Positions 3,141-48,831 of a stretch of DNA of 64,000 nucleotides are shown in pieces (position 1 is the stretch's first letter; the number at the start of each line of letters is the position of its first letter). Source of the DNA: Micromonospora arborensis. Its GTDB lineage: Bacteria; Actinomycetota; Actinomycetes; Mycobacteriales; Micromonosporaceae. Made by a program: the position numbers and the translations under genes. The DNA is taken from assembly GCF_003205615.1 (NCBI RefSeq), contig NZ_PYBV01000002.1, forward strand, positions 62,001 to 126,000. The letters run 5' to 3'. The notes beneath the pieces were generated by a model. It did no database searches, was not told where the DNA came from, and was given only the letters and a program-made list of their open reading frames with translations.

Positions 3141-3223
3141 CCTGCACCGTATGGCCATGATCCAGGCCACCGTCCGGCGTGGATCGAGGCCGCTCAGTGG
3201 ATGAGAATGCCGGTATCCGTGGC

Positions 3224-3256
3224 TATCGTGTAACCCGGGGTGACCGAGGGGGAGCG
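3224..3256 (+). promoter_or_regulatory. Putative -10 element and ribosome binding site of second kinase gene
   Basis: TATCGT at 3224-3229 followed by GTAACCCGG parallels the first kinase's upstream region. GAGGGGGAG at 3246-3254 sits just before GTG 3260 and supports that start over an upstream ATG at 3179, which lies 5' of the -10. Confidence 0.45.
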
Positions 3257-3259
3257 ACC

Positions 3260-28609: not shown

Positions 28610-28625
28610 GACCCCTACGCTCCGA

Positions 28626-30077: not shown

Positions 30078-30103
30078 CGTCGTCTCTCCTTGTGGAATTC
30101 GGG

Positions 30104-31968: not shown

Positions 31969-31992
31969 GGGTCGCCTCACCTTTCCGAAAAG

Positions 31993-32071
31993 ACTGTTAA
32001 CTGTTAGTGGTAAAAGTTCTTACTGAACGCCCCTCCGTGTCAAGACTGTGGGCGAAGTTTTCAAACTGTTA
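31993..32071. promoter_or_regulatory. Putative RpiR operator region between rpiR and GlcNAc kinase
   Basis: The divergent intergenic region 31969-32174 is locally AT-rich. ACTGTTA occurs three times in direct orientation (31993-31999, 32000-32006, 32065-32071), and GTAA-N6-TTAC lies at 32010-32023. These are candidate regulator-binding sites, although no RpiR consensus is known to me for this clade. Confidence 0.35.
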
Positions 32072-32174
32072 CCTGGCGCACAGCCCCCCGCACCCACCGG
32101 AACTTGCCCCGTAAGACCCTGCCGACCAGCATGAACAGGCCCGAACGCCGTACCAAGCAAGGAGGCCCGTGCCG

Positions 32175-33411: not shown

Positions 33412-34413
33412 TCAGCTGAGCGCCTCGTACAACGCCTGCATCGAGCGGATGGCGGACCGGACCTCCTGCAGGATGGCGGAGGTCGGTGCCGGTGGGACCC
33501 AGGGGTTCACGTCGCTGTCGAAGCCCACCGTCTCCACGTCGCAGCCGAACCGCAGGCTAAGGAGCCGAACCGCGTCACAGTGTTGGAACGGAACGAAGAT
33601 GTCGGTGGTGACCAACAACAGTCGCATCCCGACCGGTGCTGGCTGTAGGAGTTCCGCCCAGCCGATCAGCGTGTCCGCCGTGTTGGCTCGCTGACCCGGC
33701 CGGTTCGACGGCGCGGCCAGCACGTGCACCGGGGGCTGAACGTCCCGATGGGACCGCACCCACCAGGACTGACCGGTCTCGGTCGTACCGGAACGCTGCT
33801 CGGTGGCTGGCGCCGCGCCGAAGGCGTGCCGCAGTGCCTCGTCGACCGCATCGCCCTCGGTCGCCACGTCGCCCAGCCCGAGCTGGGCGGCGAACACGTT
33901 CTGCTCGGGAATCGGCCGCAGGCTGCCCAACCCCGCGACCGAGGTGGCACGCACACCCTGGCGCAGGATCGTGGCCGCCAGGTGGGCCCGCGCCATCATG
34001 GTGCGGACGCCGCCGCCGAGCACCAGGACGTGGTCGAACCGTCGGTTCCGCGGCACCACCCGACCGGCCAGCCCCAACGACCTCGCGGCCGATCTGATGC
34101 GCGCGTCGGTCGGGGCCGTGAAGGTCTCCCCCACGACCTGGTGGCGCTCCAACTGCCCCTTCCGATAGTCCCATCGGGTGGCGGAGAACTCCTCCAGCGC
34201 CCGTAGTCGATCGGCGAGCGAGCCGGCCAGCCGCTGCCCACCACCGAACTCGCCCAGCAGGGCGGTCATGGCCGGCGAGTCGACCCAGAAGGCGATCCGC
34301 TCGACGAGCCTGGCCCGGTCAGGCGGCCCCAGCTCCGCGCCGGCCGCCGTCCGCTCGCCGATCCCCGGGCCGATGGTGGGCAGTGGCACCGAGGAGAAGA
34401 CCGTCGCCGTCAC
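33412..34413 (-). CDS. Unknown conflict-island protein with possible DUF218-like domain (paralogue 2)
   Basis: A 333-aa cytoplasmic protein. GTG 34413 is used because it overlaps the upstream paralogue's stop by four bases (GTGA); reading frame beyond that is a shadow of the other gene. The N-terminal third is helical with WDYRKGQLERHQVV. The centre has a Rossmann-like start FDHVLVLGGGVRTMMARAHL, and the C-terminal third reads NTADTLIGWAELL then LLLVTTDIFVPFQHCDAVRLL. The order LGGG, NT, LLVT resembles DUF218/YdcF-type domains; that is my inference, at low certainty. It is about one-third identical by eye to its neighbour. I do not recognise a named family. Confidence 0.7.
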   Translation of the reverse strand: MTATVFSSVPLPTIGPGIGERTAAGAELGPPDRARLVERIAFWVDSPAMTALLGEFGGGQRLAGSLADRLRALEEFSATRWDYRKGQLERHQVVGETFTAPTDARIRSAARSLGLAGRVVPRNRRFDHVLVLGGGVRTMMARAHLAATILRQGVRATSVAGLGSLRPIPEQNVFAAQLGLGDVATEGDAVDEALRHAFGAAPATEQRSGTTETGQSWWVRSHRDVQPPVHVLAAPSNRPGQRANTADTLIGWAELLQPAPVGMRLLLVTTDIFVPFQHCDAVRLLSLRFGCDVETVGFDSDVNPWVPPAPTSAILQEVRSAIRSMQALYEALS

Positions 34414-35393
34414 GCGGCCAGGGTCCCGGCCAGCGCCTGATGCAGCCGCTGCATCGACAGGATGCCGGACCGGATCTCCTGCAGGTAGCGGTCGGGGTTG
34501 GTGGCGCCGGGCGCGAGTGGCACGGTGGTCCGCGCCGGATCGAAGCCGATGGTGTCGATCCCGCACCCGTACCGTGCTGCCAGCATGCGGATCGCGTCGC
34601 TGTGTTGGAACGGCACGTAGATCGGCGAGGTGACGACCAGGATCCGGTCGGTCGGTTGGAGGCTGGACCGCTGGGCCCAGAACTCGTATGTGTCGGGGGT
34701 GTTGGCGCGGCGCTGCTCCGGTGCGCTGGAGGGCGCGGCGAGCACGTGCACCGCCGGGCAGTCGGCGGCCCGGTACGTGCGGACCTGCCAGGACCGGTGC
34801 GTCACGGGCCCGTCGGACGACTCGCACCGCACCGGCTCCGTGAGCCCGAACGCGCTGCGCACGCCAACGCCCATCGCGTCCATCTCGAACCGACTGTCGG
34901 CCAGCCCGGGCAGCGCGGTCTCCGCCTCGGTCAACGGTCGGAAACTGCCGAGCGCCGCCACGTCACCAACCGCGACGACACCCTCGCGGACGAGCCGGGC
35001 GGCGAACTCGGTGCGTTGCAGACACGCCCGCCCGAGGCCACCCAGGACCAGCAGGTGGTCGTAGGTGGCATGGGGCGGATCGGTCGGCTCGACGAGACGC
35101 AGGGCGGTGGCCACAGCGAGCACGAGCGCCGTCCGGGCCGGGTCGAAGGTCGGCGCCGCCACCTGGTCACGTTCCACATTGCCCTGCTTGCGGAAATTCC
35201 AGTGCTGGTCGGAGAACGCGTCGAGCCAGGCAAGAATCTCGCTGACGTCGCCTGCCGGCAGGGTGCCGCCGTATTCCTCGACCAAAGCGCGCATCGGCGG
35301 CGATGAGATCCAGCCGAGGATTTCCTCGGCCGCCGCCTGTGGACGGAATTTTGGCTCGCAAGTCGGAAGGGCGACAGCAGCGAAGCCGACCAT
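34410..35393 (-). CDS. Unknown conflict-island protein with possible DUF218-like domain (paralogue 1)
   Basis: A 327-aa cytoplasmic protein, first gene of a two-gene operon divergent from the MoxR gene. GAAGGAGAAGC precedes the ATG. Shared blocks with its paralogue are WNFRKQGNVERDQV, YDHLLVLGGLGRACLQRTEFA, HVLAAPSSAPEQRRANTPDTY and RILVVTSPIYVPFQHSDAIRML, ending in a helical EIRSGILSMQRLHQAL. The last helix resembles the equivalent one in the paralogue (EVRSAIRSMQALYEAL). The retention of both copies suggests a heterodimer. Function unknown. Confidence 0.7.
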   Translation of the reverse strand: MVGFAAVALPTCEPKFRPQAAAEEILGWISSPPMRALVEEYGGTLPAGDVSEILAWLDAFSDQHWNFRKQGNVERDQVAAPTFDPARTALVLAVATALRLVEPTDPPHATYDHLLVLGGLGRACLQRTEFAARLVREGVVAVGDVAALGSFRPLTEAETALPGLADSRFEMDAMGVGVRSAFGLTEPVRCESSDGPVTHRSWQVRTYRAADCPAVHVLAAPSSAPEQRRANTPDTYEFWAQRSSLQPTDRILVVTSPIYVPFQHSDAIRMLAARYGCGIDTIGFDPARTTVPLAPGATNPDRYLQEIRSGILSMQRLHQALAGTLAA

Positions 35394-35450: not shown

Positions 35451-35481
35451 ATTCTAGACGAGAGTGGCCCGCGTCGGTCGA
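35451..35481 (-). promoter_or_regulatory. Putative promoter of the two-gene paralogue operon
   Basis: On the minus strand TCGACC (35481-35476), a 19-base spacer and TAGAAT (35456-35451) lie about 60 bases upstream of ATG 35393. This falls in the 333-base divergent gap 35394-35726, which otherwise holds no gene. Confidence 0.45.
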
Positions 35482-35686
35482 TGGCAAAGCCGCGCCGGGA
35501 ACGTGCATCATGGCCGGTCAGACTGGATTCAGTGGAGCGCCGATTCTGCTCGCCGGCCGGCCCCGGGAGTCCGGAGACGCGCGTCGACATCGCCTGGCAC
35601 GCCGTCCCGAACCAGGCACCGGTGGAGTCGACGGAGCATGCCGCGGGGCTCGCTCCGTCGATCAGTAACGATGGATCACCCGTTCA

Positions 35687-35692
35687 TAGGAT
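35687..35692 (+). promoter_or_regulatory. Putative -10 of the MoxR-VWA-CHAT operon
   Basis: TAGGAT at 35687-35692 would start transcription near 35699, upstream of GTG 35727. This supports that start over in-frame ATG 35481. No clear -35 was found. Confidence 0.35.
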
Positions 35693-35726
35693 CGACAGGC
35701 GCGCGGACCTGACCGAATCTCAGTCA

Positions 35727-36572
35727 GTGCCGAACGCTTCCTTTTCCACTCCGGAACAGATCGCGGCGGAACTCGCCAAGCTGAATTATCTGGCCGAGCC
35801 CGGACTGGCGGCTGCGATCTTCCTCGCGAAGAAGCTGAAATTGCCGCTGTTCCTCGAAGGCGATCCCGGCGTAGGGAAGACGGCGCTGGCCAGGAAGGTC
35901 GGCCTGCTACTGGGCGTCGAGCCGATCCGTTTGCAGTGTTACAGCGGCATCGACCGATCGCAGGCCCTCTATGAGTGGGATTTCGCCCGGCAACTGCTGC
36001 ATCTGCGCGGCACACCCGACACCAAGTCGATCTACTGCGAGGAATTCCTGATCGCTCGGCCGATTCTGCAGGCCGTGGAGAAAAATCCGTCGGTGCTGCT
36101 CATCGACGAGATCGACCGTGCCGATGACGAGTTCGAGGCGTTCCTGCTCGAAGTTCTCGAAGGTGACACCCTCAGCATTCCCGACTATCGGACGATCGTC
36201 ATCAAGGAGCCCCCTTTCGTCATCCTCACGTCCAACGGCACTCGGGAAGTACACGGGGCTCTCAAACGGCGGTGTGTCTACCACTGGATCAGCCATCCGA
36301 CCCGAGAGAACGAGGCGGAGATCATCCGGTTGAACGTTCCGGAGGTGGCGAACACCCCGCTGGCCGGGCAGATCGCGGCCGCCATGGCCCAGTTACGGCA
36401 ACTGCCGCTGGTCCGGCCCCCCGGGGTCGCCGAGTCGATCGCCTTCGCCCGCGCCGCGCTCGCACTCGGCCGCAACACCGTCGCCGAAGCCGCCGACGAC
36501 GCGCTCGGGGTGCTGGTCAAGCAGCACGAGGACGAGGACGCCGTCCGAAGCGTCCTCCGGTCGGCCCGGTGA
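35727..36572 (+). CDS. MoxR-family AAA+ ATPase
   Basis: A 281-aa AAA+ ATPase. Walker A is EGDPGVGKTALA (Lys51), Walker B is VLLIDEIDRADDEFEAFLLEVLE, sensor 1 is FVILTSNGTREVHGALKRRC, and the C-terminal lid follows. MoxR proteins pair with VWA proteins as chaperone-like remodelling machines, and in conflict systems they regulate an effector. GTG 35727 is chosen because it aligns with the family N-terminus (TPEQIAAELAKLNYL); the ribosome binding site is weak. Its stop overlaps the VWA gene's GTG by four bases. Base composition here is visibly less GC-rich than the flanks, hinting at transfer. Confidence 0.9.
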   Translation: MPNASFSTPEQIAAELAKLNYLAEPGLAAAIFLAKKLKLPLFLEGDPGVGKTALARKVGLLLGVEPIRLQCYSGIDRSQALYEWDFARQLLHLRGTPDTKSIYCEEFLIARPILQAVEKNPSVLLIDEIDRADDEFEAFLLEVLEGDTLSIPDYRTIVIKEPPFVILTSNGTREVHGALKRRCVYHWISHPTRENEAEIIRLNVPEVANTPLAGQIAAAMAQLRQLPLVRPPGVAESIAFARAALALGRNTVAEAADDALGVLVKQHEDEDAVRSVLRSAR

Positions 36573-37729
36573 CCTCCGGCCCCGACCCGGTCACGGATCT
36601 GGTCGGGTTCGTCCACCGACTACGCGCCGACGGGGTCCGCGTCGAGGTGGCGCGGGTGGCCACCTCGCTGCGCGCGCTCGGCGCGTTCGAGCGGCTCGAC
36701 CACGAGGACATCTACTGGGCGACCCGGCTGACCCTGTGCTCACGGCACGAGGACCTGCCGGCCTTCGACGCCGCGTTCGCCGCGTGGTTCGGCGTCGCGG
36801 CACCGACGGCCACGTCCGCCTCCGCACTGCCGGGTCCGGCGGAGAACGGTGAACCGACGGACGACCCCGAGGACGAGGGCGAGGACCTCGACACCGAGGG
36901 GACGACTTCCCGAGCCGGGTTCGCCGAACGGTTGGCGACGGTCTCGCCGTGGACGCTGAACGACCTCGAGCGCGCCGAGGTCGCGTCATTCATCGAGGCA
37001 TTCACCAGGTCGGTGCCGCTGCGCCGGACGATGCGCCGCACCACCGGCGGGCGGCGGAACGTCGACGTGTCACGCACGGCGCGAACGATGATGCGCAACG
37101 CGGGTGAGCCGACCCGTCTGTGGTACCGCCGACAGGCCCACGCTCGACGCCGTCTGGTCCTGCTGGTGGACGTCAGCCATTCGATGCGCGACCACCGGGG
37201 CCTGCTGCTCCGGTTCGGCTACGCCGCGGTCGCCGTCGCCCCCATGACGACCGAGGTGTTCACGTTCGGCACCCGGCTCGACCGCATCACCCGGCAGTTG
37301 CGGTCACCCGATCCGCAGGCGGTGATGCACGCGCTGGCCGCCCGCCGCTCGGACTGGGACGCGGGGACCCGGCTCGGGGCCACGATCACCTCCTTCAGTC
37401 AGATCTGGGGCGGACACCGCATGGTGCGGTCGGCGAATCTGGTGATCGTCTCCGACGGGTGGGAGTTGGCCGACCCAACGCCACTGGTCGCACAGGTCAG
37501 TCGACTGTCCCGACTGGCGCACCGGGTGATCTGGGCCAACCCGCAGGCGGGGGCGCCCGGGTTCACGCCGACCGCCCCGGCGCTGCTGGGCAGCCTGCCG
37601 TACGCCCACCTGGTCGCCACACCGGACGCGGCGGCCCTGCGCTCACTCGCCGGCCTGCTTGGTTGCCCTGCCTGTGGGCCACGCTGCCAGCGTCACCGCG
37701 AACTCAGGAAGTGGAGTGTTCCGACGTGA
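36569..37729 (+). CDS. VWA domain (CoxE-like) protein
   Basis: A 386-aa protein starting at GTGA within the MoxR stop. The N-terminal half is helical (DLVGFVHRLRADGVRVEVAR) with an acidic Asp/Glu-rich linker, and the C-terminal half is a CoxE/YehP-type von Willebrand A domain. The MIDAS motif DVSHSMRD (Asp201) is complete, with later Thr/Asp positions in FGTRLDRIT and IVSDGWEL. It should bind a divalent metal and a client, working with the MoxR ATPase. Its own stop overlaps the CHAT gene start (GTGA), so all three proteins are made in concert. Confidence 0.9.
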   Translation: MTSGPDPVTDLVGFVHRLRADGVRVEVARVATSLRALGAFERLDHEDIYWATRLTLCSRHEDLPAFDAAFAAWFGVAAPTATSASALPGPAENGEPTDDPEDEGEDLDTEGTTSRAGFAERLATVSPWTLNDLERAEVASFIEAFTRSVPLRRTMRRTTGGRRNVDVSRTARTMMRNAGEPTRLWYRRQAHARRRLVLLVDVSHSMRDHRGLLLRFGYAAVAVAPMTTEVFTFGTRLDRITRQLRSPDPQAVMHALAARRSDWDAGTRLGATITSFSQIWGGHRMVRSANLVIVSDGWELADPTPLVAQVSRLSRLAHRVIWANPQAGAPGFTPTAPALLGSLPYAHLVATPDAAALRSLAGLLGCPACGPRCQRHRELRKWSVPT

Positions 37730-40041
37730 CCCACGCCCTCGACTGCACCGTGCGTCGCGCACTGGCCCGCGACACCATGCTCGGGCTCGCGCACGACGCC
37801 GAACAGGCGATGATCATCGTGCGGAAGGAGGACCACGTCGCGGGAATGCTCGACAACGAGCAGGAGCTGCTCCAGACCGCCGTCGATCGCTACCTGATCC
37901 AGTCGAAGACCCGTCGCCGCTGGCCGACCGGGGAGGTCGACCACGACTGGTCGTTCCGCAGCAGCGGCCACGCGAACGCCGCCACCATTCTCCGGTTCTG
38001 CGACCACCTCGGCCGCCCCCTGCCCTCGGCACCGGCCATCGAAGGGTTGTACGAGGCCGCGCTCGCCGAACTCCGCCCGACCGACGGGTCGGTGCGGGAC
38101 CCGTCGGCCGAGGTCACCATCACCTACCGGCTCGTGCGCAGCCTCCGGGCGGCGGGGCGGCCCGCGGAAGCCCTGGCGCTGTCGGCGACCCTGGACCGCG
38201 AGTTCTTCAACGGCAGCGGCGCGGAAACCCGTGCCGGGGACGTCGACTTCGAGACCGGCGCCTGCCTGCTCGCACTGGGCCAGGCCGGGCAGGTCCACTC
38301 TGCCCTGGGGGAGTTGACGCAGACCTACTGGGAGTCGACCGAGGCCCGGCACTACTCGACCCGACATCGCCACGGCTTCATCCTGGCGCTGGCCGACCAG
38401 GCGACCGACCACACCCAGGACGCCGTCACGCGGATGGCGCAGGCGCTGGAGCACCTGGTCGAGTACCGCATCGCCGACACCCGACACGACGTGTACGAGC
38501 TGTCGCTGACCCTGACCCTGGCGGAGCTGTCGGCCCTGTCGGCGGACGGCAACGAGCGGGCGGTCGTGCTCGCCGAGCGGGCGCTGGGGATCGCCGAACG
38601 GGTGCGGGGCCGGTGGGGCGTGATCTCCCGGGCACGCACGCCGCTGTCGGCCGCGTTCCGACGGGTGTACGGCGACGTCGCGCTGCTGGCGTCGCGACTA
38701 CGCGGGCCCGAGGCCGCCGAGATCGGGCTGCGGGTGTGCCTCGCGGCCAAGCAGACCGGGTTGGCCGCGCAGATGCGGGCCGAGGCGTCCCTGTTGCCCA
38801 CCCAGCTTCAAGGGTTGGTCGACGAGGTGCTCCGAGCCGAACAGGTCACGCCGCTCGATCCGAGCGCGGATGCCGAGGCGGTACGCCGGCAACGCGATGA
38901 ACAGGAGCAGAGGCTCGCCGAACTGCACCGGCGGATCGAGAAGCGGGTCAACCCGATCCTCGCGGAGCTGACGCTGCCCACGCCGACGAACCTGACCGCC
39001 CTGCTGCGGGCGGTCGGCGACCGGCACGCGCTGGACTTCGCCGCCCTGCCGGACACGCTGGCCGAGGAGGCCAACTGGTTCCGCACGTTGACCTCACCGG
39101 GCGGCGGTGTGTTCTTCGAGCCGTTCGACCCGGGTGACGATCTGGCCCGGTACGTCGACGGCCGGCGCGGCCGGAACCCCGGCGCCGAGCTGGACCTCCA
39201 CCTCGGCGCCCCGGACTGGCACCGGCTGGGCGTCGACATCCTCCCCGGCGAACTGCGCCACCGGCTCGCCGCCGCCGTGGACGAACCGCTGGAGTTGGTG
39301 GTGTCGGCACATCGGGAACTGTGTCTGCTGCCCTGGGCGGCGCTGATGGTGGACACCAGCGGAACGCGCCTGGTGAGCCGGGCCGTCCTCACCCAGACGC
39401 CGGTGCTGACCTGCCTGTCGGACGCACCGCCGCCCCCGGTGTCCGGCCCGGCGCTGGTCCGGCTGGTGTCGCGGGCGGAGCAGGGCGCCTCGATCGAGCA
39501 GGAACGGCTGGCCTGGGGCCTGGGCAAGCCCGAGGACGGGAGGGTCCCGCTGAGCCTCCGCACACTCGACGGGCAGTCGCTCGACCTGCGCCACTCCCCC
39601 CGCATCAGCGCGGCCCTTCGGAACAGGGCCGACTATGGGTTGATCCACATCACGACGCACGGCAGCGGCCACGGCCTCGAGCAACACCTGTTACTCCCGG
39701 AGGAGATCGCCACCGCGGGCCGGTTGTCCGCAGGGTACGCGTTGGCTCTGCACTGGCCGGAGTCGACGCTGATGGTCTCCTGCCAGGTCGGCGCGGTCAC
39801 CAATGTGGAGGACACCGAGCCGGTCGGTCTGGTGGTGGCCGTGCTGACCGGTGGTGGGCGATGCGTCGCGGCGGCGATCGAGGAGGTGGCGAATCTCCCG
39901 GCCGGCCGGATGGCCGCTCGCCTCGTGGAGCTCATCCGGCGGCCCGGGGTCCGGCTGGACCACGCGCTCCGCCTCGCCCAACTGTCCTTCACACACGAGC
40001 CGGTGGCCAACTGGGCGCTGTTCAACGCGTACGTCAGATAG
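37726..40041 (+). CDS. CHAT-domain (caspase-like) protease with helical/TPR-like N-terminus
   Basis: A 771-aa protein. About 430 N-terminal residues are alpha-helical with TPR-like pairs (for example LVRSLRAAGRPAEALALSAT and AVVLAERALGIAERVRGRW). A coiled-coil-like stretch (RRQRDEQEQRLAELHRRIEKR) follows, then a C-terminal CHAT protease. The catalytic His645 is in LIHITTHGSGHG, and Cys686 is in LMVSCQVGAVTN, preceded by the family's LCLLPWAAL. It is likely the effector of the MoxR-VWA module, kept inactive until triggered and then cleaving a self or partner protein. The 3' end overlaps the convergent gene by eight bases. Confidence 0.88.
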   Translation: MTHALDCTVRRALARDTMLGLAHDAEQAMIIVRKEDHVAGMLDNEQELLQTAVDRYLIQSKTRRRWPTGEVDHDWSFRSSGHANAATILRFCDHLGRPLPSAPAIEGLYEAALAELRPTDGSVRDPSAEVTITYRLVRSLRAAGRPAEALALSATLDREFFNGSGAETRAGDVDFETGACLLALGQAGQVHSALGELTQTYWESTEARHYSTRHRHGFILALADQATDHTQDAVTRMAQALEHLVEYRIADTRHDVYELSLTLTLAELSALSADGNERAVVLAERALGIAERVRGRWGVISRARTPLSAAFRRVYGDVALLASRLRGPEAAEIGLRVCLAAKQTGLAAQMRAEASLLPTQLQGLVDEVLRAEQVTPLDPSADAEAVRRQRDEQEQRLAELHRRIEKRVNPILAELTLPTPTNLTALLRAVGDRHALDFAALPDTLAEEANWFRTLTSPGGGVFFEPFDPGDDLARYVDGRRGRNPGAELDLHLGAPDWHRLGVDILPGELRHRLAAAVDEPLELVVSAHRELCLLPWAALMVDTSGTRLVSRAVLTQTPVLTCLSDAPPPPVSGPALVRLVSRAEQGASIEQERLAWGLGKPEDGRVPLSLRTLDGQSLDLRHSPRISAALRNRADYGLIHITTHGSGHGLEQHLLLPEEIATAGRLSAGYALALHWPESTLMVSCQVGAVTNVEDTEPVGLVVAVLTGGGRCVAAAIEEVANLPAGRMAARLVELIRRPGVRLDHALRLAQLSFTHEPVANWALFNAYVR

Positions 40042-41416
40042 GGCGTTCCCGGCTCACCGGCCGTCCCACGACGGCCGACACCCGCTCGGCCCGGCCCGGC
40101 TCATCGGCGTACTTGTCGAGGATGAACCATCGTGCGCGCCAGGCGCGGTACCCCGGTGTGGCGTCGAAGGCCACCCGGCACGCCTCGACACCGTCGAAGA
40201 AGTTGGGCATGATCGCACCGCCGAATCCGCGGAACGTGCTGCGTTGCGTCTCCCGCCCGTGCCGGTCGACGATCGTCTCCGTCAACCAGGCGGACATGGC
40301 CTCCACCGCGGCATCGTCGAGCACCTCGTGCGACAGGCACGGTGCGAACGTCAGCGAACTGGGCAGCCGCCGGCCCGGCATCAGCAACGCGGCGGCCAAC
40401 CGGATCTGGACGACCGCGAGCTTGAGGTCGTCCCGCAACTCTCGCGGCTCGCCCTTGCTGTTCGTGACCGGTCGCTCCACGTACCCGTACGCCTTGTCGA
40501 AGCGGGCGCACAGACTTTTTCGGCTGTCGTCCCAGGAGTCGTCGTCACCGAGTGGGAAGTAGCCGAGCCGCTGCATCTCCGGGTACAACCCCAGCACGAG
40601 CAACACGGCCCGCGCGGTCATGATCCCCGGGTTGACGAAGCTCAGGTGCTGGGCGAGGCGCTCCTTCGTCGGCTCGTCGACGAACTTGTGCTTCGCGACG
40701 CGCTCGGCCGCGACGAGGGCCTCCTCACCCCGGGTAACTCCCTCCTGAAGGTCACTGAAGATCAGCTGAACGCGCTTCTCACGGCTCGGCCGGTCCGCGT
40801 CCTCGTTGCCGGTCGCGAACTCCTCGGCCCACCGATCGATCACCCGCTCGGCGATCCGGCAGGCGGTGCCGGTCTCGGCCAACTCCAGCTGGAGCAGGAT
40901 CTCGTCGAAGTGGAGTTCGATCGAGGCGAGCTGGGGGGAGGTCCGCTCCCGGTGGTAGGTGAGGTGGTCGGCGTGACGGTTGCGCGCTTCCGCGTGGACG
41001 ACCCGCGCGCGGCCGAAGGACTCCATTGTGTCTTCTTTCGACTCCGCCAGCGCCAGCGCACGGAACGCCCCCAGGGCCCGAGGGGCGAACTCCGGCCAGG
41101 GCAGCTTCCGGGCGGCGTTGGTGACGCGCAGGACGCGCTCGTGGTTCACCCGCGCGGCCACCTGCGCGTCGCCGCCGACCTCCTTGAACCGGTTCGGGAT
41201 GCGGTTCAGGGCGGCCCACGTCGCCTCGTACAACAACCAGCCCATCAGCGGCAGCAGCTCGGCGACGTCGTCGGGCGGCAACTGGGGCGTCGGATCGCGC
41301 TGGTACGCGGCGACATCGGCCTCGATGGCGCTGACGAGGTCGTCGTCGCAAGGAATCTCGCGTCGGCGAAGGGCAAGGCACAGCTCTTCGAGACGCGCGG
41401 CGCTCATGACGTTCAC
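40034..41416 (-). CDS. Unknown alpha-helical conflict-island protein (460 aa)
   Basis: Not a family I recognise. GTG 41416 is preferred because GAGGAG lies about six bases before it; ATG 41467 (overlapping the upstream gene by 14 bases) and ATG 41407 are alternatives. The protein is soluble and mostly helical, with charged heptads (EELCLALRRREIPCDDDLVSAIEADV and ASIELHFDEILLQLELAE). A more hydrophobic block follows (NPGIMTARAVLLVLGLYPEM), and a conserved-looking C-terminus (GGAIMPNFFDGVEACRVAF). It follows the CATRA gene in the same operon and overlaps the CHAT gene tail-to-tail by eight bases, so it is probably part of the same system. Confidence 0.75.
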   Translation of the reverse strand: MNVMSAARLEELCLALRRREIPCDDDLVSAIEADVAAYQRDPTPQLPPDDVAELLPLMGWLLYEATWAALNRIPNRFKEVGGDAQVAARVNHERVLRVTNAARKLPWPEFAPRALGAFRALALAESKEDTMESFGRARVVHAEARNRHADHLTYHRERTSPQLASIELHFDEILLQLELAETGTACRIAERVIDRWAEEFATGNEDADRPSREKRVQLIFSDLQEGVTRGEEALVAAERVAKHKFVDEPTKERLAQHLSFVNPGIMTARAVLLVLGLYPEMQRLGYFPLGDDDSWDDSRKSLCARFDKAYGYVERPVTNSKGEPRELRDDLKLAVVQIRLAAALLMPGRRLPSSLTFAPCLSHEVLDDAAVEAMSAWLTETIVDRHGRETQRSTFRGFGGAIMPNFFDGVEACRVAFDATPGYRAWRARWFILDKYADEPGRAERVSAVVGRPVSRERPI

Positions 41417-41453
41417 GGATGCTCCTCTGGTCGTCGGCAATGCTCGGGGTGGG

Positions 41454-43004
41454 TCAGCGCAGCTCATGTCGTGCTCTCCTGACCCGCCAGCCGAGCCAGG
41501 CACCGAACGCCGCCGCCGCGGCGATGGCCGACGCGACGCGGCTGACCGGGGCGGACGGCAGCTGCGCGGTCTGCCACCGGACCAGCCAGGTCCCGACGAA
41601 CCAGGTCACCGACGCGGCGAACCCGGCGGCCGCGATGCCGACCCAGATCCGCCCCCAGATCTGGGACGTCGAGCGGAGCGCCGCGGCCAGCAGCAGGAAC
41701 AGCCCCCCGGCGGCCACCGAGACGATGAGCGGAGCCTGCAGCGAGGCGTACATCGGCCAGTCGTGATTGAGTGACTGCGACGCCGCCAACAGCAGGCCGA
41801 CTGCCGCGATCACCGAGGTGTGCAACGCGCTCAGGAACTCGCTGCGTTCACTGATGTCACGGAGCCGCTGCTCAAGGTCGGCCGAGCCGATCTGAGCCAT
41901 CGGGTGGGCGTACGCCACCGTGTTCCGCCCCAGGTCCGCCGCATCGTTGATCTCGGTGATCAGCCGAGCCACGTACTCCTGGTCTCTGCCAATCGGGCCG
42001 GCCAGGCCCTCGACCCAGGCGTGCTCGTCCCGCACCGGCATGTCCTCGGCCCAGTACTCCAACCAGATCCGGGCCTCGTGGGCCGCCGCCTCGACGGTCC
42101 GGCACATGATGCGGAGGCGGGCCGCACCGGCCGCGACCAGCGCCGTCTCCCGTTGGAGGTGTCGAAGCATCCGTTCCCGGGCCTGGCTCGGTTCCGGGTC
42201 GGTCTGCTCACGGCGCTCGAAACGCGACGCCAGGTCGTAGAGCCTGGCCGGTCGGTCCTGCGAACGGCGCTCTTCGAACCGGCGGGCCTCGTGGCGGACC
42301 TTGGCCAGCTGCCAGAAGTAGCCGGGCAGCGGCCGAAGGTCTCCCTCGATCGGCCATACCCAGTCGTCGCTGACCGCCCCCTTGGCGGTGGGTGCCAGCA
42401 GCACGACGACCCGTTCCAGTCCGTCGTCGGCGGGGGCGGGAACCTCCCACAGGTAGAAGCCGGGAAGCGGCTCGGTGGGAGTTTCCGTCCGGACCTCCGC
42501 CCCGCCCGGCAGCGCGGCCGTCACGGCGGTGGCGAGCTGATCCACCTCAGCGTCGCCGTCGTACAGGGCATAGAACAGCCGCACCCAGCCGACGCAGTCC
42601 TCGTCCGTCACCGAACCCGCGGCCTGTCGCCAATCCCGGTCGAGCTCCGGCCAGTCCGCCGAGCCGTCCTCCGGTGCCAGGCAGACCAGGAAGGCGTCCA
42701 GGCGGGGCGAGGCGAAGCGCAGCGCCTGCCAGACTCCCTCCCGTGGGGCAGAGAGAAGTTGCGTGGTCCGGATGCCGCCGGGGCGCACGAGCGGCAGGCT
42801 ACCGCTCTCCTCCATGCCCAGCGTCCTACACGCGGCGGTGATCCGCTCGGCGACGTCGGTGTGCCAAAGGCCGTCGAAGTAGGTGTAGACGTGCAGCGCG
42901 TACGCGTGCAGCCTTAGCGACGCGGATCGGCGGCCGGTGGTGTCTTCCCCGCCTTCGCCTGCTCCAGGCGCTCGGTCAGACGCTCGGAGTGCTCTCTGAT
43001 CCAT
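41454..43004 (-). CDS. CATRA-like conflict-system membrane protein (CASPASE/TPR-associated)
   Basis: A 516-aa protein with a soluble N-terminal two-thirds and about four C-terminal membrane helices (SVIAAVGLLLAASQ, LIVSVAAGGLFLLLAAAL, IWVGIAAAGFAASVTWFVG, VASAIAAAAAFGAWLGW). The N-terminal ALHVYTYFDGLWHTDVAERI and VWQALRFASPRLDAFLVCLAP resemble the CATRA (Caspase and TPR Repeat Associated) core proteins described for NTP-dependent conflict systems; this is recalled, not searched. The ATG 43004 start makes a 91-base overlap with the preceding small gene; a CTG just after that gene's stop is an alternative. It probably anchors or senses for the CHAT effector at the membrane. Confidence 0.72.
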   Translation of the reverse strand: MDQRALRASDRAPGAGEGGEDTTGRRSASLRLHAYALHVYTYFDGLWHTDVAERITAACRTLGMEESGSLPLVRPGGIRTTQLLSAPREGVWQALRFASPRLDAFLVCLAPEDGSADWPELDRDWRQAAGSVTDEDCVGWVRLFYALYDGDAEVDQLATAVTAALPGGAEVRTETPTEPLPGFYLWEVPAPADDGLERVVVLLAPTAKGAVSDDWVWPIEGDLRPLPGYFWQLAKVRHEARRFEERRSQDRPARLYDLASRFERREQTDPEPSQARERMLRHLQRETALVAAGAARLRIMCRTVEAAAHEARIWLEYWAEDMPVRDEHAWVEGLAGPIGRDQEYVARLITEINDAADLGRNTVAYAHPMAQIGSADLEQRLRDISERSEFLSALHTSVIAAVGLLLAASQSLNHDWPMYASLQAPLIVSVAAGGLFLLLAAALRSTSQIWGRIWVGIAAAGFAASVTWFVGTWLVRWQTAQLPSAPVSRVASAIAAAAAFGAWLGWRVRRARHELR

Positions 43005-43264
43005 TCCGACTGCCTCGTCTTCTGCACCTCGGGGAGTTCCTCTGTCTTGTTGTGCAGAGATTGGAGAGCCTCGATCACCTGCCGACAGCGCTGGATCTCG
43101 GCCAGGTCACCCCGATCGAGGGCCGCGCCCATCAGCGACATGTAGTGAACGAACTTTTCCCATTTCTCCGGCGTCAGAGTGGACTCGCCGACGTCATTCA
43201 CCGCGTCGATGGCGTATTGAAGGATCTCCGTCGGACCAGGCGCACCGAAGTCATTCATCAACAT
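42914..43264 (-). CDS. Small CATRA-system-associated-like protein
   Basis: A 116-aa soluble helical protein, first in the CATRA operon. The segment LTPEKWEKFVHYMSLMGAALDRGDLAEIQRCRQVIEAL has the W-x-x-(V)-x-x-L-x-x-M-x-x-AL-x-x-GD pattern I associate with small CATRA partners; the fit is by memory. ATG 43258 may be the real start: TATCGT on the minus strand (43272-43267) is placed so that transcription would begin at about 43259, giving a leaderless mRNA. The C-terminal 30 codons overlap the CATRA gene. Confidence 0.68.
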   Translation of the reverse strand: MLMNDFGAPGPTEILQYAIDAVNDVGESTLTPEKWEKFVHYMSLMGAALDRGDLAEIQRCRQVIEALQSLHNKTEELPEVQKTRQSEWIREHSERLTERLEQAKAGKTPPAADPRR

Positions 43265-43594: not shown

Positions 43595-44608
43595 TCAGAA
43601 AGAGCAGTTGACGAGATCGCATTCCGGGCCCAGCCGGATACCGAAACGCGCTTCGACACCGGCTCGAATGTGGGCCGCGAACTTCATGACCTCCGACGTG
43701 GTGGCACCACCCCGATTGGTCACCGCCAGCGCGTGCCGACTCGACAGGGCCACCGTGCCGTCTCCCCACTCGAGACCGTAGCCGCGGGAAAATCCGGCCC
43801 GCTCGATCAACCAGGCCGCCGGCAACTTGGTGCCCTTGACGTCCGGATACCGGGGACACTCCCGAGCACTCTCCGGCACCTCGGCGAGGACGGGGTTGAT
43901 GAAGAACGATCCGACACTCCAGGTGTCGTGATCCTCAGGGTCGAGAACCATGGCCCGGCTGCGTCGCAGGACGAGCACCGCCTCGCGTACGTCGGCCGGG
44001 GACGCCGTGCCGCCGACCTCGATGCCCAGTCTCTTAGCGAGTTCGGCGTACTCGATCGGCCGCGACTGGCCGCTGCGGCGCAGGCGGTAGGTCACCTCCA
44101 CCACGACCCACCGGTCGCTGTGCTTGAAGACGGACTGTCGGTGGCTGCCGAACCCGCAGCGGTCCGGGGTCCATCGCTCGACGCGGCCGGTCTGCCGGTC
44201 GTAGACGGTGAGCGAGTCGAGCACGTCCGAGGTCACGGTGCCGAACGCACCGACGTTCTGCACAGGTGTGCCCCCGACCAGACCGGGGATGCCGGACAGG
44301 GCCTCCAGGCCGGACAGCCCCGCCTCGACGGCGGCCTTGACCACGTTGTCCCACTCGACGCCGGCGGCGACGGTCAGCAACTCTCCGTCGATGCCGAACT
44401 CCGAGGTCGCCATCCTGACGACGGTCCCGTCCCAACCGACGTCACCCACCACCAGGTTCGACCCGCCTCCCATGACCAGTAGCGGATCACCGGCGGCGGT
44501 GGCCTGGCGCAGCAGTTCGACCGCTTCGGGGGTGGTCTCCGGGACGTACAGGCGCCCGATCGGACCACCGACCCGCATCGTGGTCAGGTCAGCGAACGTG
44601 ATTGTCAC
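43595..44608 (-). CDS. murB: UDP-N-acetylmuramate dehydrogenase MurB
   Basis: A 337-aa flavoenzyme that reduces UDP-GlcNAc-enolpyruvate to UDP-MurNAc with NADPH. FAD-binding motifs are LTTMRVGGPIGRLYVPE, LLVMGGGSNLVVGD and SGIPGLVGGTPVQNVGAFG. The C-terminal substrate domain has SVGSFFINP with the catalytic serine and PAAWLIERAGFSRG. The GTG start lies six bases after TAGGCT, as in a leaderless gene. Its location beside murD2 and murL suggests a local peptidoglycan-precursor set; whether it is the only murB in the genome cannot be told. Confidence 0.93.
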   Translation of the reverse strand: MTITFADLTTMRVGGPIGRLYVPETTPEAVELLRQATAAGDPLLVMGGGSNLVVGDVGWDGTVVRMATSEFGIDGELLTVAAGVEWDNVVKAAVEAGLSGLEALSGIPGLVGGTPVQNVGAFGTVTSDVLDSLTVYDRQTGRVERWTPDRCGFGSHRQSVFKHSDRWVVVEVTYRLRRSGQSRPIEYAELAKRLGIEVGGTASPADVREAVLVLRRSRAMVLDPEDHDTWSVGSFFINPVLAEVPESARECPRYPDVKGTKLPAAWLIERAGFSRGYGLEWGDGTVALSSRHALAVTNRGGATTSEVMKFAAHIRAGVEARFGIRLGPECDLVNCSF

Positions 44609-44614
44609 CGTGCC

Positions 44615-44620
44615 AGCCTA
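44615..44620 (-). promoter_or_regulatory. Putative -10 for leaderless murB mRNA
   Basis: TAGGCT on the minus strand, six bases before GTG 44608, with no ribosome binding site between. Confidence 0.4.
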
Positions 44621-44668
44621 CTGATCGGCGTGCCGAAGCTCACGGCCTCCTCGCGGGCGGGCCGTCCG

Positions 44669-45025
44669 TCAGGACCCGGACGTCGACCGGAGGCGTCGGG
44701 CCGCGATCTGGACGGCACTCTCGCACATCGCGTGGCGGTCGGCCGTCGGAATCCGCCGGAGACTGAGGCCCGCGAGAATGTTCACCGGCCACGACGTGAT
44801 GCTCTCCGGCTTGCTGCCGTTCACCTCGAGAAACAACTCCACGTCGTACTCGTTCGAGGTCCGCGTGAGGTAGTCCTGGACCACGGCGAGGAGGGCGTCG
44901 GCGAGCGCCTGCGCCACCGCGTGTCCGTCGCTGACGTCGATTGTTCTTCCGGCGGCCGTCAAGATCCGGTCCTGCAACATCTTGGCGTCCATGGCCGCCA
45001 TTCGGTACAGGTCGTCGGAGGACAT
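44669..45025 (-). CDS. Hypothetical protein, 118 aa
   Basis: Not recognised. A soluble, probably alpha/beta protein beginning DDLYRMAAMDAKMLQDRIL, with YDVELFLEVNG and ITSWPVNILAGLSLRRIP in the middle and a basic C-terminus. ATG 45025 is the assumed start; an in-frame GTG about 27 bases upstream is possible. A longer reading frame reaches 45460 but runs antisense to the end of the PP2C gene region and is rejected. It lies 60 bases before murB and 224 bases after the PP2C-like gene, all on one strand. Confidence 0.6.
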   Translation of the reverse strand: MSSDDLYRMAAMDAKMLQDRILTAAGRTIDVSDGHAVAQALADALLAVVQDYLTRTSNEYDVELFLEVNGSKPESITSWPVNILAGLSLRRIPTADRHAMCESAVQIAARRLRSTSGS

Positions 45026-45249
45026 TGGACTGCCGGTTTCCTCGATCACAGCTGGCACATCCCGTCGAACCGGCCCCCGAGATCGCAATGCCACGGCGTT
45101 CCGAGTGAGTGCTCGTGGAATCGGTGCGGGTGACGCATGGTGATGGTCTTCCCGTGGGTGAGAACGGCAGTATTGAACCGTCACTTTCCCGTCCAGGCAA
45201 TAGCACCGTCGGAATTCCGTCACGTGCCGGTCCGCGGGACGGCGTCCGA

Positions 45250-46026
45250 TCAGAACGGTCCGCGAAGCACGGCGAGTGTCGCGTCGTCGTGCCGTTTGAC
45301 CGGGCCGCGCCCCACTCGCGCCAGCAGGTCGGGACGCTCGGTCTCGTACCGCCGGACAGCGTCGATGACGGCGCGCGGACCAGACCGCTCGGCGATCTCG
45401 AACACGTCGGTCCACCCGAGCTGGAAGAACTCGGTCAGTCGCGAGATCCCGTCGGTGCACAGCAACAGCCGGCGCAGCCCGGCACGCGCCACGCTGCCGG
45501 TCACGGCCTCGGCCGCCGCCGCCGGATCGGTCGACGCCACCCAGAAGCCTCCCGGCCGGTTGCGGAGTCGACCCACCGTGTGCCGGTCATAGGCTGGCAG
45601 AGTGTCGGTGCGGTCGTCACGGACGACGGTGAGGCCGTTCCCGTTCTCGAAGACCACCGACGAGTCGCACAACACCAGATAGTCCACCTGCTCACCCCGG
45701 GCACGCACGATGGCGACGGTGGACGATGGACTGTGCGGGTTCGACAGGTCGCAGCGGCCCGCGTGGCAGCCGCGCGCCTCCTCGATGGCGGTGGCCAGGA
45801 TCAGCTCCAGCGACACCGTCGGCCCGGCCGTCAACGCGCGAGCCAGACAGTCGCCCAATTCCCGCACCAGCCAGGCGGGACCGTGCACACAGCCGGTGTC
45901 GAGGTCGGGCAGTTCGGTGACCCCGTCCAGCACGATCGCGTAGTCGGCCGTCGTGACCACGTGGTCCTCGTTCGGCCGGTCCGAGCCGGGCGCGGTGGCG
46001 AAAGCGAAGTCCAAGACAGTCCTCAC
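45250..46026 (-). CDS. PP2C-like Ser/Thr phosphatase
   Basis: A 258-aa PP2C-fold protein. Metal-binding aspartates fit GSDRPNEDHVV, YAIVLDGVTE, LLLCTDGISRLTEF and the C-terminal KRHDDATLAVL. It lacks membrane segments. The GTG start has no ribosome binding site, and a TTG at 46014 with GAGGA upstream is an alternative. It sits between murD2 and the 118-aa gene. It may reverse Ser/Thr phosphorylation of cell-wall enzymes, since actinobacterial Mur enzymes are known PknB-type targets, but that is inference. Confidence 0.8.
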   Translation of the reverse strand: MRTVLDFAFATAPGSDRPNEDHVVTTADYAIVLDGVTELPDLDTGCVHGPAWLVRELGDCLARALTAGPTVSLELILATAIEEARGCHAGRCDLSNPHSPSSTVAIVRARGEQVDYLVLCDSSVVFENGNGLTVVRDDRTDTLPAYDRHTVGRLRNRPGGFWVASTDPAAAAEAVTGSVARAGLRRLLLCTDGISRLTEFFQLGWTDVFEIAERSGPRAVIDAVRRYETERPDLLARVGRGPVKRHDDATLAVLRGPF

Positions 46027-46083
46027 CGGGGGCTGCGCGGCCGGCTGCCCCGCTCGTGGCGAGGGGAGAGGACGGCAGCCCGC

Positions 46084-47433
46084 TCAGCCGACCAAAGTCT
46101 CCGCGATGGCCTCGCGGAACACCTCTGAGCGGTGCTCGTAGTTGCGGAACCGACCATAGCTGGGCGCTGCCGGCGACAACAGCACGACGCCGCCGGCCGG
46201 GGTGATCTTCCGGGCGTGCCGCACGGCGGCCGTCAGGTCGTCGACGATCTCGCAACGCACCCCGGGCAGCCCGTCCAGCGTCTGGACGATCCGGGGGCCG
46301 CTGTCCGGAATGCCGATCACGGCGATCTCCCGCTCCGCCAGATGGTCGCGCAGCGGGCCGTAGTCCACGCCCCGGTCGTTGCCACCCACGATCACCGTCA
46401 GCGGTCGCCCGTCGTACGCGTCGATCGCGTGCATCGCCGCGTACGGGCTGGTGGCCAGGGTGTCGTCGACGAACGTGAGGCCGGACGGGTCGACAATCTC
46501 GGTGAGCCGGTGCGCCAGCCCCTGGAACTCGGCGACCGCCACGGCCAGGGTGTCCTTGCGGGCGACGACGTCGACGCCGAGCGCGTCGAGCACGGCCAGC
46601 ACCACGCACAGGTTGCTCTCGTTGTGCCGGCCGACCAGCGGCAGCACCGCGCGCGGGAAGAGCGGGTGGCCCCCCAGATGGAACCAGGGCGTCCCGTCCG
46701 GCCCGACGTCGACGTGGGTGGTGTCGGGCAGACCTGCCCGCACCACCGGGCGGTCACCCAGCTCCGCGATGAGCCGCGGGTCCGTGCCGTTGACCACCAC
46801 GGTCGCCGGATCGTGGGCGATCAGGTTGAGCTTGTCCCGGTAGTACTCCCGCTCACCGCCATGCGCGTCCAGATGTTCGGGGAACAGGGCGGTGACCACG
46901 GCGACATGCGGCGAGTCGGTAAGGTCACTGCACTGGTAACTCGACAGTTCCAGCACGTAGAGGTCCGCCTCCGGCAGCTCCAGCGTCGGTACGCCGATGT
47001 TGCCGCCGAACAGGTTCGGTCGCTCGACCGCGTTCAGCAGGTGGCTGGTCAGACTCGACGTGGTGCTCTTGCCCTTGCTGCCGGTGACCCCGACGGTGCG
47101 GGCCGCGTGGTCGGCCATCCAGAGCGCGGTGCCCTGCGTGACGGGGATACCGCGTCTGCGCAGTTCGACCATCCAGGGATGCGTCTGCGGCACCCCCGGG
47201 GAGCGGATCACCACGTCCGCCGCGACCAGCCGAGCGAGCCCGTCGGCACCGGTCACCAGCGGCGCGGCCTGGGCGATCGGCCCCTCCCACGGCAGCGACA
47301 GGAAGTTCGTCCGGTCGTCCACGGCGACCAGGCTGGCCGGGCCGTGCGCGGCGACGGCGGTGACGGCGGCCACGCCCTCACGGCCCGTACCCCAGACGGC
47401 CACGGAGCGTCCGCGCAGGTCAGCCAGGTGCAC
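46084..47433 (-). CDS. murD2: UDP-MurNAc-L-Ala--L-Glu ligase MurD2
   Basis: A 449-aa Mur ligase. GTG 47433 is chosen because AAGGAG lies seven bases upstream; a TTG at 47454 is the longer reading. Residues begin with a Rossmann-like domain (RSVAVWGTGREGVAAV). The ATP-binding loop is VGVTGSKGKSTTSSL, and the C-terminal domain has IVGGNDRGVDYGPL. It is homologous to MurD but adjacent and divergent to murL, so it is best read as MurD2, which adds L-Glu (not D-Glu) to UDP-MurNAc-L-Ala. The MurL epimerase then inverts the Glu. This pair is known from Xanthomonas and Micromonospora. Confidence 0.85.
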   Translation of the reverse strand: MHLADLRGRSVAVWGTGREGVAAVTAVAAHGPASLVAVDDRTNFLSLPWEGPIAQAAPLVTGADGLARLVAADVVIRSPGVPQTHPWMVELRRRGIPVTQGTALWMADHAARTVGVTGSKGKSTTSSLTSHLLNAVERPNLFGGNIGVPTLELPEADLYVLELSSYQCSDLTDSPHVAVVTALFPEHLDAHGGEREYYRDKLNLIAHDPATVVVNGTDPRLIAELGDRPVVRAGLPDTTHVDVGPDGTPWFHLGGHPLFPRAVLPLVGRHNESNLCVVLAVLDALGVDVVARKDTLAVAVAEFQGLAHRLTEIVDPSGLTFVDDTLATSPYAAMHAIDAYDGRPLTVIVGGNDRGVDYGPLRDHLAEREIAVIGIPDSGPRIVQTLDGLPGVRCEIVDDLTAAVRHARKITPAGGVVLLSPAAPSYGRFRNYEHRSEVFREAIAETLVG

Positions 47434-47470
47434 CTGTGATCTCCTTGCTCGCAACCGGACAAGCTCGGAC

Positions 47471-47476
47471 TAGTAT
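47471..47476 (+). promoter_or_regulatory. Putative -10 for leaderless murL mRNA
   Basis: TAGTAT five bases before GTG 47482, with no ribosome binding site between. A distant TTGCTC lies 20 bases upstream. It is in the short murD2-murL divergent region. Confidence 0.45.
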
Positions 47477-47481
47477 GACCT

Positions 47482-48831
47482 GTGCCTAACGGACAACTGC
47501 GGCGGATGGACGCCTTCACCTTCCCGTCCTACTCGATCGACTTCGCCACCGGCGAGGTGTTGTTCGACTACGCGCTGACCGGCCCGGACGGTGAGCAACG
47601 GTTCACCGAGGCGATCGCCCTTCCACTGCCGGCGGAGCCGCCCTCGGACGAGACGGTGGCGACCCTGGGCCGGGTGTTGGAGGTGCTGCACCTCGTCGCC
47701 GGGGTCAGCTACTACAAGGCCGCCGCGCCGCCCCGACTCGTGCTGCCGGCGCCGCTGGGGGCGGCCACCGTCGACTACGTCACGGCCGTCTACACCAAGG
47801 GCCTCGCCGAGTACGCGTACCGCAACCAACTGCCGCACGTGCTGGCGCTGCGCCCGGAGGTTCCGGTGGGTTCGCCGGAGCCACCACGGGTGTACGACGA
47901 CTCCGACCGTCGTCCGCTCTCGGCGGTCGGTGGGGGCAAGGACTCGATCGTCAGCCTGGAGGCGCTGCGCCGCGCCGAGTTGGACCCGGTGCCGTTCTCG
48001 GTCAACCCGAACCACGTGATCGTCTCGGTCAACGAGGCGTCCGGGCTGACCCCGCTGGCCGCCCGACGCCGGCTCGACCCGGTGCTGTTCGACCTGAACG
48101 CGGCTGGCGCGCTCAACGGGCACATCCCGGTCACCGCCATCAACTCACTGATCGCCGTGGCCACCGCGGTGCTGCACGGGCTGGGTCCGGTGGTGATGTC
48201 CAACGAGCGCTCGGCCTCCGACCCCAACCTGGTCTGGAACGGTCACGAGATCAACCACCAGTGGTCCAAGGGCGTCGAGGCGGAAGGGCTGCTGCGGACG
48301 GCGCTGGCCGAGCACGCGGGCCTGACCGAACCGTACTTCTCACTTCTGCGCTCGCTGTCCGAGCTGCACATCGCCCGGCTGTTCGCCGAGATCACCCGGT
48401 ACGACGACGTGGTGACCAGCTGCAACGCCGCGTTCAAGCTGCACGACGCGAGCGAGCGTTGGTGCCGCGACTGCCCGAAGTGCCGGTTCGTCTTCCTGGC
48501 CATGGCGCCGTTCATGCCGCGGGAGCGGGTCACCCACATCTTCGGCGGCGACCTGCTCGCCGACCCGGAGCAGATCCCCGGCTATCGCGAGCTGCTGGGC
48601 GTGGACGGGCACAAGCCGTTCGAGTGCGTGGGCGAGGTCGAGGAGTCGGTAGTGGCCCTCGGCCTGCTCGCCGAGCAGGACCAGTGGCGCGACGCCCCGG
48701 TGATCCAAGCCCTGGTCGAAGCCGTCCCGGAGACAGCCTGGTCCGCCGTGGCCAAGTCCGACGTCTTCACCCCCGGTGGCCCCAACCACATCCCACCCAC
48801 CTACGCCAAAGCCCTAACCCCCCTCACCTAA
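47482..48831 (+). CDS. murL: UDP-MurNAc-L-Ala-L-Glu epimerase MurL
   Basis: A 449-aa enzyme, recognised from its start (RRMDAFTFPSYSIDF) and conserved blocks AVGGGKDSIVSLEAL, MSNERSASDPNLVWNGHEINHQWSKG and SERWCRDCPKCRFVFLAM. The SGGxDS-like loop GGGKDS suggests ATP pyrophosphatase-type nucleotide binding, and a CxxCPKC cluster may bind metal. MurL epimerises the terminal L-Glu of UDP-MurNAc-L-Ala-L-Glu to D-Glu, giving the usual precursor without a glutamate racemase step. It is divergent from murD2. The start is probably leaderless. Confidence 0.87.
   Translation: MPNGQLRRMDAFTFPSYSIDFATGEVLFDYALTGPDGEQRFTEAIALPLPAEPPSDETVATLGRVLEVLHLVAGVSYYKAAAPPRLVLPAPLGAATVDYVTAVYTKGLAEYAYRNQLPHVLALRPEVPVGSPEPPRVYDDSDRRPLSAVGGGKDSIVSLEALRRAELDPVPFSVNPNHVIVSVNEASGLTPLAARRRLDPVLFDLNAAGALNGHIPVTAINSLIAVATAVLHGLGPVVMSNERSASDPNLVWNGHEINHQWSKGVEAEGLLRTALAEHAGLTEPYFSLLRSLSELHIARLFAEITRYDDVVTSCNAAFKLHDASERWCRDCPKCRFVFLAMAPFMPRERVTHIFGGDLLADPEQIPGYRELLGVDGHKPFECVGEVEESVVALGLLAEQDQWRDAPVIQALVEAVPETAWSAVAKSDVFTPGGPNHIPPTYAKALTPLT

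Follow-up and report, generated by a model that had tools for sequence, protein, structure and literature searches.

The 64,000-nucleotide stretch of Micromonospora arborensis DNA analysed here (the window; contig NZ_PYBV01000002.1, from a Micromonospora genome of 7.3 Mb and 99.96% completeness) contains genes of peptidoglycan-precursor synthesis next to a cassette of predicted conflict genes. The gene order on the minus strand is murD2-PP2C-U118-murB, with murL divergent from murD2, and the five genes lie where an earlier reading of the DNA (the initial annotation) had placed them, all confirmed by profile matches or as an open reading frame (ORF). The comparison of strains shows that the MurD2 allele, the PP2C-type phosphatase, the small protein U118 and the second MurB form one haplotype with the CHAT/P489/CATRA cassette, and that, in several strain lineages, this island haplotype stands in place of the ordinary murD2 region as far as the start of murL. 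The features are as follows, "carriers" being the Micromonospora genomes that have U118.

47482..48831, plus strand: MurL; NF041275, E 1e-118, 397 bits; resident gene, which tracks the strain lineage in the tree
47434..47510, unstranded: switch point between the island haplotype and the resident murL, from identity profiles and sequences
46084..47433, minus strand: MurD2, 449 aa; TIGR01087, 287 bits (cut-off 212); island allele
45250..46026, minus strand: PP2C-type phosphatase; PF13672, 31.4 bits (cut-off 24); in all eight carriers
44669..45025, minus strand: U118, a small helical protein of 118 aa adjoining MurB
43595..44608, minus strand: second MurB; NF010478, 407 bits (cut-off 231), with tree and motifs
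42914..43264, minus strand: CATASP small protein; PF20271, 30.4 bits (cut-off 29)
41454..43004, minus strand: CATRA protein, start uncertain; PF20269 (4.7e-19) and PF20270 (2.6e-8)
40034..41503, minus strand: P489, conflict-cassette protein, from homologues; in all eight carriers
37693..40041, plus strand: CHAT (caspase-like) protein, of uncertain start in an ORF open from 37120

The recognition of MurL in the initial annotation was correct, as was that of its divergent neighbour as a Mur ligase, which has the L-Glu-type residues E and R. MurL stays, at 397 bits, under the NF041275 cut-off of 700 (a Xanthomonadales model), and is 89% identical to MurL of Micromonospora sp. ATCC 39149; its relatives range from 81 to 96% identity, many named Micromonospora giving 93–96%. 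The preferred murD2 start is GTG at 47433, with AAGGAG just upstream, TTG at 47454 being less good. On the other strand, a TAGTAT box (47471–47476) sits directly before murL, its end 5 nt ahead of the GTG, and this suggests a leaderless murL transcript. U118 has no Pfam family and a single weak NCBIfam match under the cut-off (17 bits vs 218). Two adjacent Ser/Thr-kinase-like genes, named by eye, lie at 1425–5137 of the window, 40 kb away, and are possible counterparts of the PP2C-type phosphatase.

The conflict island, putative in the initial annotation, is borne out by Pfam matches for CATASP, CATRA-N and CATRA-C, both CATRA domains being over their cut-offs in the window protein, together with a CHAT-type protein. 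The window CHAT copy itself misses PF12770, which its homologues match in four of four loci tested; His and Cys are kept in 12 of 12 aligned rows, which include two genes twice (as L029/L110 and as L051/L113). No family match was found for P489 in the profile searches, and a PADLOC scan of eight window proteins named none of them. CATRA-N, CATRA-C, CATASP and a caspase-type CHAT are common to the island and to CATRA systems, presented in the available part of the source as caspase-dependent ternary conflict systems (PMC8195603); a defence or cell-death activity of the cassette is predicted from these CATRA-type genes. Unlike the other CATRA loci examined (18, from 31 match rows outside this genome), the island is linked to MurB, U118, PP2C and MurD2.

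MurD2 lies near MurL in 79 of the 80 MurL loci sampled, many with short or cut flanks; the exception, L053, begins 158 bases before murL. PP2C, U118, MurB, CHAT, P489 or CATRA occur in only three of these loci (L029, L051 and L086). That PP2C, U118 and MurB are ordinary parts of the murD2-murL locus was considered and rejected, as within the available flanks 77 of the 80 loci do not show them. The initial annotation had assigned MurB, PP2C and the 118-aa gene to the cell-wall locus beside the island; the island stands, while the three genes, with the MurD2 allele, belong with it. Of 160 Micromonospora genomes searched, eight have U118, this one among them, and a class-wide search among 394 genomes gave this genome and one weak match of 57 residues. 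All eight carriers have PP2C, U118, MurB, CHAT and P489, and seven a CATRA match; murD2 and murL are within the fetched stretch for seven, and the eighth (L113) overlaps L051, which has both. Two arrangements are seen. In type A (the window, L107, L108 and L109) PP2C-U118-MurB lies toward the murD2 side of the cassette, two DFGG genes (described below) intervening between the two in L107. In type B (L110, L111 and L112) it is P489-CHAT-CATRA that lies toward murD2; L113 has this order without a CATRA match. Type B CATRA is 24% identical to window CATRA, and MurB and PP2C are 74–91% identical over all carriers.

The history of murD2 differs from that of murL. In a tree of 84 MurD2 rows the eight carriers occupy one side of a branch (SH-aLRT 100), and with 11 outgroup rows of the family they form a clade (support 100/100) within a Micromonospora radiation whose branching is unresolved, while a single Micromonospora row groups with the outgroup. 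The MurL tree (85 rows, those of L111 and L112 partial) requires five gains or losses of the island among the same strains, four of them forced by supported branches, without telling gains from losses. An identity jump at the murL start is found in seven of eight carrier/non-carrier pairs, from 68–77% over the last 100 bp before the start to 90–95% over the 100 bp that follow it. The remaining pair (L109/L061) is uninformative, the distance between murD2 and murL being greater in L061. The eight pairs are non-independent events, and two non-carriers enter twice. In the seven pairs murD2 is 77–84% and murL 91–96% identical, murD2 being 7–19 points lower, whereas in 12 of 12 non-carrier control pairs the two genes differ by 0.1–2.8 points. 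The murD2-versus-murL contrast is the better evidence, since the intergenic 100 bp also drops to 71–82% in 3 of the 12 control pairs. In two ordinary strains, L049 and L061, the murD2-murL gap is 1.7–1.9 kb instead of the usual <0.1 kb, so this divergent promoter region can take insertions. A rival account of such data is hitchhiking, in which the interval from the sugar kinase to murL is a recombination hot spot, murD2 serves as a homology arm, and MurB, PP2C and U118 are functionally untied cargo; in a variant, an old island haplotype was replaced and lost in most lineages. The ordinary interval likewise varies in content and length, as this account would expect; against it stands the presence of the island MurD2 allele in all eight carriers. 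We regard hitchhiking as the main rival and a serious one, possible though by itself not probable.

The initial annotation had read murD2 and murL as a second D-Glu route beside the canonical one, and this part did not survive. One MurD match in the genome is over the cut-off, the window MurD2, and six others under it are as expected of other Mur ligases. MurI gave no match in a search that was positive in 10 of 14 control genomes. MurB alone is duplicated, the window copy being accompanied by a resident one on contig C11. Because there is neither a MurI match nor another MurD, no D-Glu route besides MurD2/MurL was detected, in a search not aimed at D-amino-acid transaminases. In the alignment, the window MurD2 has Glu and Arg at the L-Glu-type stereospecificity motifs, positions which we take to be those of D182 and K348 of E. 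coli MurD, and both are present in 84 of 84 MurD2 sequences. An altered specificity of the island MurD2 was considered and is not supported, the L-Glu motifs being the same as in ordinary MurD2. According to the part of the source available, residues at the Asp182/Lys348 positions decide L-Glu use in Xanthomonas oryzae MurD2, the pathway is published for Micromonospora, Actinoplanes, Verrucosispora and Salinispora, and it was proved in vitro with enzymes of a Micromonospora sp. and S. tropica (PMC8788868). The window shares with this pathway (XOO_1320/XOO_1319 in X. oryzae) the same two enzymes, the missing MurI and the L-Glu residues, and ligation of L-Glu followed by ATP-dependent epimerisation is predicted for the window enzymes from these relatives (same partial source). 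The D-Glu half of the finding is therefore already known; unlike in the published pathway, the MurD2 here is a diverged allele linked with a conflict island, and MurB, PP2C and U118 are outside that pathway. A second route would agree with the duplicated MurB, but it is hardly credible in a genome without MurI or another MurD, and in genera which, by the survey in the accessible part of the same paper (PMC8788868), have no D-Glu-forming genes. MurL-family matches, putative wall epimerases, occur in 14 of 295 genomes of the class, over several families, and one MurD2 homologue (L208, genome G540) has a single in-frame TGA inside the match.

MurB, MurD2, PP2C and U118 are under purifying selection, the enzymes being maintained, while the conflict cassette diverges fast. 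Among carriers, median pN/pS (simple counts, partly saturated; seven carriers for MurD2 and CATRA, eight for the others) is 0.19 for MurB, 0.22 for MurD2, 0.32 for PP2C and 0.37 for U118, against 0.74 for CHAT, 0.68 for P489 and 0.86 for CATRA. Such constraint on MurB and U118, despite the resident MurB, speaks against untied cargo. The island MurB is 45% identical to the resident MurB, which is of another lineage, and the island MurBs have 'FGSHRQS' and 'PECDLVNC' in common. Arg, Ser and Glu, presumably the catalytic residues, are kept in alignment and sequence. U118 is directly beside MurB in 12 of 12 U118 loci (10 of which entered the U118 alignment). Its AF2 model from two input sequences has five helices at a mean pLDDT of 80.5, the other four models reaching 42–56, and the predicted fold found no PDB match (best E 0.65).

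The constant adjacency and the small helical form of U118 could indicate an effector- or toxin-like pair, in which U118, released or activated by the protease, would block the resident or island MurB and halt wall synthesis in the attacked cell, with the island MurB as partner or sink. This is unlikely, as MurB is well conserved and catalytically intact by its motifs, U118 matches no fold or family, and a locus of another family of the order (L176, genome G928) has the same MurB type with CHAT (36%) and P489 (41%) homologues and no U118 detected. Target replacement is a further reading: the island enzymes would protect the cell from a natural product that inhibits MurB or MurD2 (antibiotic or self-resistance), and the conflict genes would merely lie next to them, unrelated. 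Duplication of the target enzyme commonly marks resistance. Inhibitors of MurD2 from actinomycetes exist, by the portion of the source available (PMC8788868). No biosynthetic cluster was seen among the genes read, although no search was aimed at clusters, and the active-site motifs of MurD2 are unaltered; we consider this explanation very improbable.

Outside Micromonospora, U118 adjoins MurB in two other genera of the family, the MurB being 74–76% identical to the island MurB; no PP2C, MurD2 or CATRA lies near these two loci (L121 and L122). In L121 (genome G511) MurB-U118 come after a protein of 1439 aa whose start is caspase-like (PADLOC caspase, E 8.7e-4; the motif was also recognised by eye) and which has WD40 repeats and an AAA domain; in L122 (genome G481) a trypsin/nSTAND/TPR protein is encoded nearby. 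No MurD2-like ligase reaches E <= 1e-40 in G511, and that of G481 lies 3.6 Mb from MurB-U118, so the pair is independent of the MurL route. Homologues of U118 are also found beside chromosome-type MurBs on two plasmids: on Nocardia plasmid pPE-7 (L143; MurB 63.5% identical) U118 precedes MurB, with TPR proteins nearby, one with AAA/nSTAND matches, and on the Rhodococcus ruber conjugative plasmid pYYL1.1 (L144; MurB 69% identical) a CHAT protein lies 5.3 kb from the pair. A protease-type gene is thus near 11 of 12 U118 loci, which count as four of five contexts, the eight Micromonospora loci being one context. With the CHAT model, controls gave 1 of 20 other-MurB loci (20 of 45 such places were taken; the positive one is L176), 1 of 18 other CATRA loci and 0 of 77 non-carrier MurL loci; these counts are lower bounds, since the model misses the Rhodococcus CHAT that Pfam finds. 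That MurB and U118 turn up again beside different protease systems, both in other genera and on a plasmid, also speaks against hitchhiking.

It is proposed that the locus is a conflict island which brings along enzymes of peptidoglycan-precursor synthesis, these being probably guarded targets or replacements of targets, a reading drawn from gene content and comparison to which we give a little less than even confidence. The island protease system, or an attack that the island answers, would act on precursor synthesis at MurB and MurD2, and for this reason the island may hold its own MurB and MurD2, as replacement (insensitive) or guarded versions. U118 might be an adaptor between MurB and the protease module, whose phosphorylation state PP2C might switch. 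In favour are the two arrangements, with such dissimilar CATRA proteins, around the same PP2C-U118-MurB and MurD2; the sole MurD, missing MurI and two MurBs; PP2C-U118-MurB, CHAT and P489 in every carrier; the single carrier MurD2 clade set against the MurL tree changes and the murD2-murL identity gap; and purifying selection, the protease-type genes near U118 and the kept MurB catalytic residues.

Several observations weigh against the proposal. MurB was also considered as a general CATRA partner; 0 of 18 other CATRA loci have MurB, U118, PP2C, MurD2 or DFGG. The U118 loci outside Micromonospora lack PP2C and MurD2, and at one of them, on the Nocardia plasmid, no protease was found. MurBs from other families of the order have motifs near-identical to those of the island MurBs, and no conflict gene was detected near them; the motif is thus a mark of lineage, not of conflict function. 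Only three near-fixed differences separate island and ordinary MurD2, as hitchhiking would have it, and with the same L-Glu motifs nothing marks the island MurD2 as insensitive. The window island is a mosaic in the trees, its MurD2 grouping with L111, L112 and L029 and its MurB with L108 and L109; such recombination between cassettes and MurD2 again suits hitchhiking. Between carriers of different clades, murD2 (80–86%) and murL (82–87%) are about equally diverged, as the variant with an old haplotype and losses would give, which weakens a recent spread and lowered our confidence a little; repeated transfer explains the data no better than an old haplotype that was replaced, and so lost, several times.

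Whether the island proposal extends to a class of actinobacterial conflict systems built around peptidoglycan-precursor synthesis is on balance doubtful. Such a class would have a MurB-U118 core with interchangeable death proteases (CHAT/CATRA, caspase-STAND or trypsin-STAND), joined in Micromonospora by PP2C and an own MurD2; if it exists, that MurD2 replaces the only, essential enzyme of the host, and defence and wall synthesis are exchanged as a unit. The new part is the neighbourhood: a conflict island carrying its own MurD2 and MurB is undescribed in the open-access literature searched, and no link of MurB or a Mur ligase to conflict or defence systems was found in those full texts. Which allele of a sole-copy wall enzyme a strain has goes with whether it carries the caspase-like conflict island, and, if the island proposal is true, bacterial programmed defence would be tied directly to peptidoglycan precursor supply; the recurrence of MurB with death proteases across genera and on plasmids hints at the same link.

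Three further genes lie beyond the CHAT gene.

35481..36572, plus strand: AAA ATPase, candidate island member lying at the cassette's far end; PF07728, 1.2e-11
34410..35393, minus strand: DFGG gene 1, predicted YdcF/DUF218-like fold
33415..34320, minus strand: DFGG gene 2, start uncertain

MoxR-like ATPases form part of conflict systems described elsewhere. In 55 of the 80 MurL loci (two of these being carriers) DFGG genes lie close to murD2, and 11 of 12 U118 loci have them. The predicted DFGG fold (pLDDT 84) is nearest to YdcF (VIA-align Z 9.3 over 195 residues at 4.2 A, the next row at 7.2), the Foldseek match being weak (E 0.077); likeness to the DUF218 proteins YdcF, ElyC and SanA would be in predicted fold only, as neither window DFGG protein has any Pfam match, the DUF218 profile included. 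By the accessible part of one report, ElyC acts in lipid-linked peptidoglycan precursor metabolism of E. coli and deletion of YdcF has no reported phenotype (PMC3879167). L121 also encodes a protein with Rv3818-like and Rieske domains, Rv3818 being, in the available part of the source, the orthologue of the muramic acid hydroxylase NamH (PMC10050696), and the Rhodococcus and Nocardia plasmid loci have, by annotation, an MBL-fold protein and a Rieske protein. At 26772–33164 of the window, genes identified by eye as those of an ABC transporter, a SIS-domain protein, an RpiR-type regulator and a ROK-like sugar kinase are read as an amino-sugar uptake operon adjoining the island, and a sugar-kinase gene also lies from a few kb to about 14 kb from murD2 in six of seven ordinary genomes searched.

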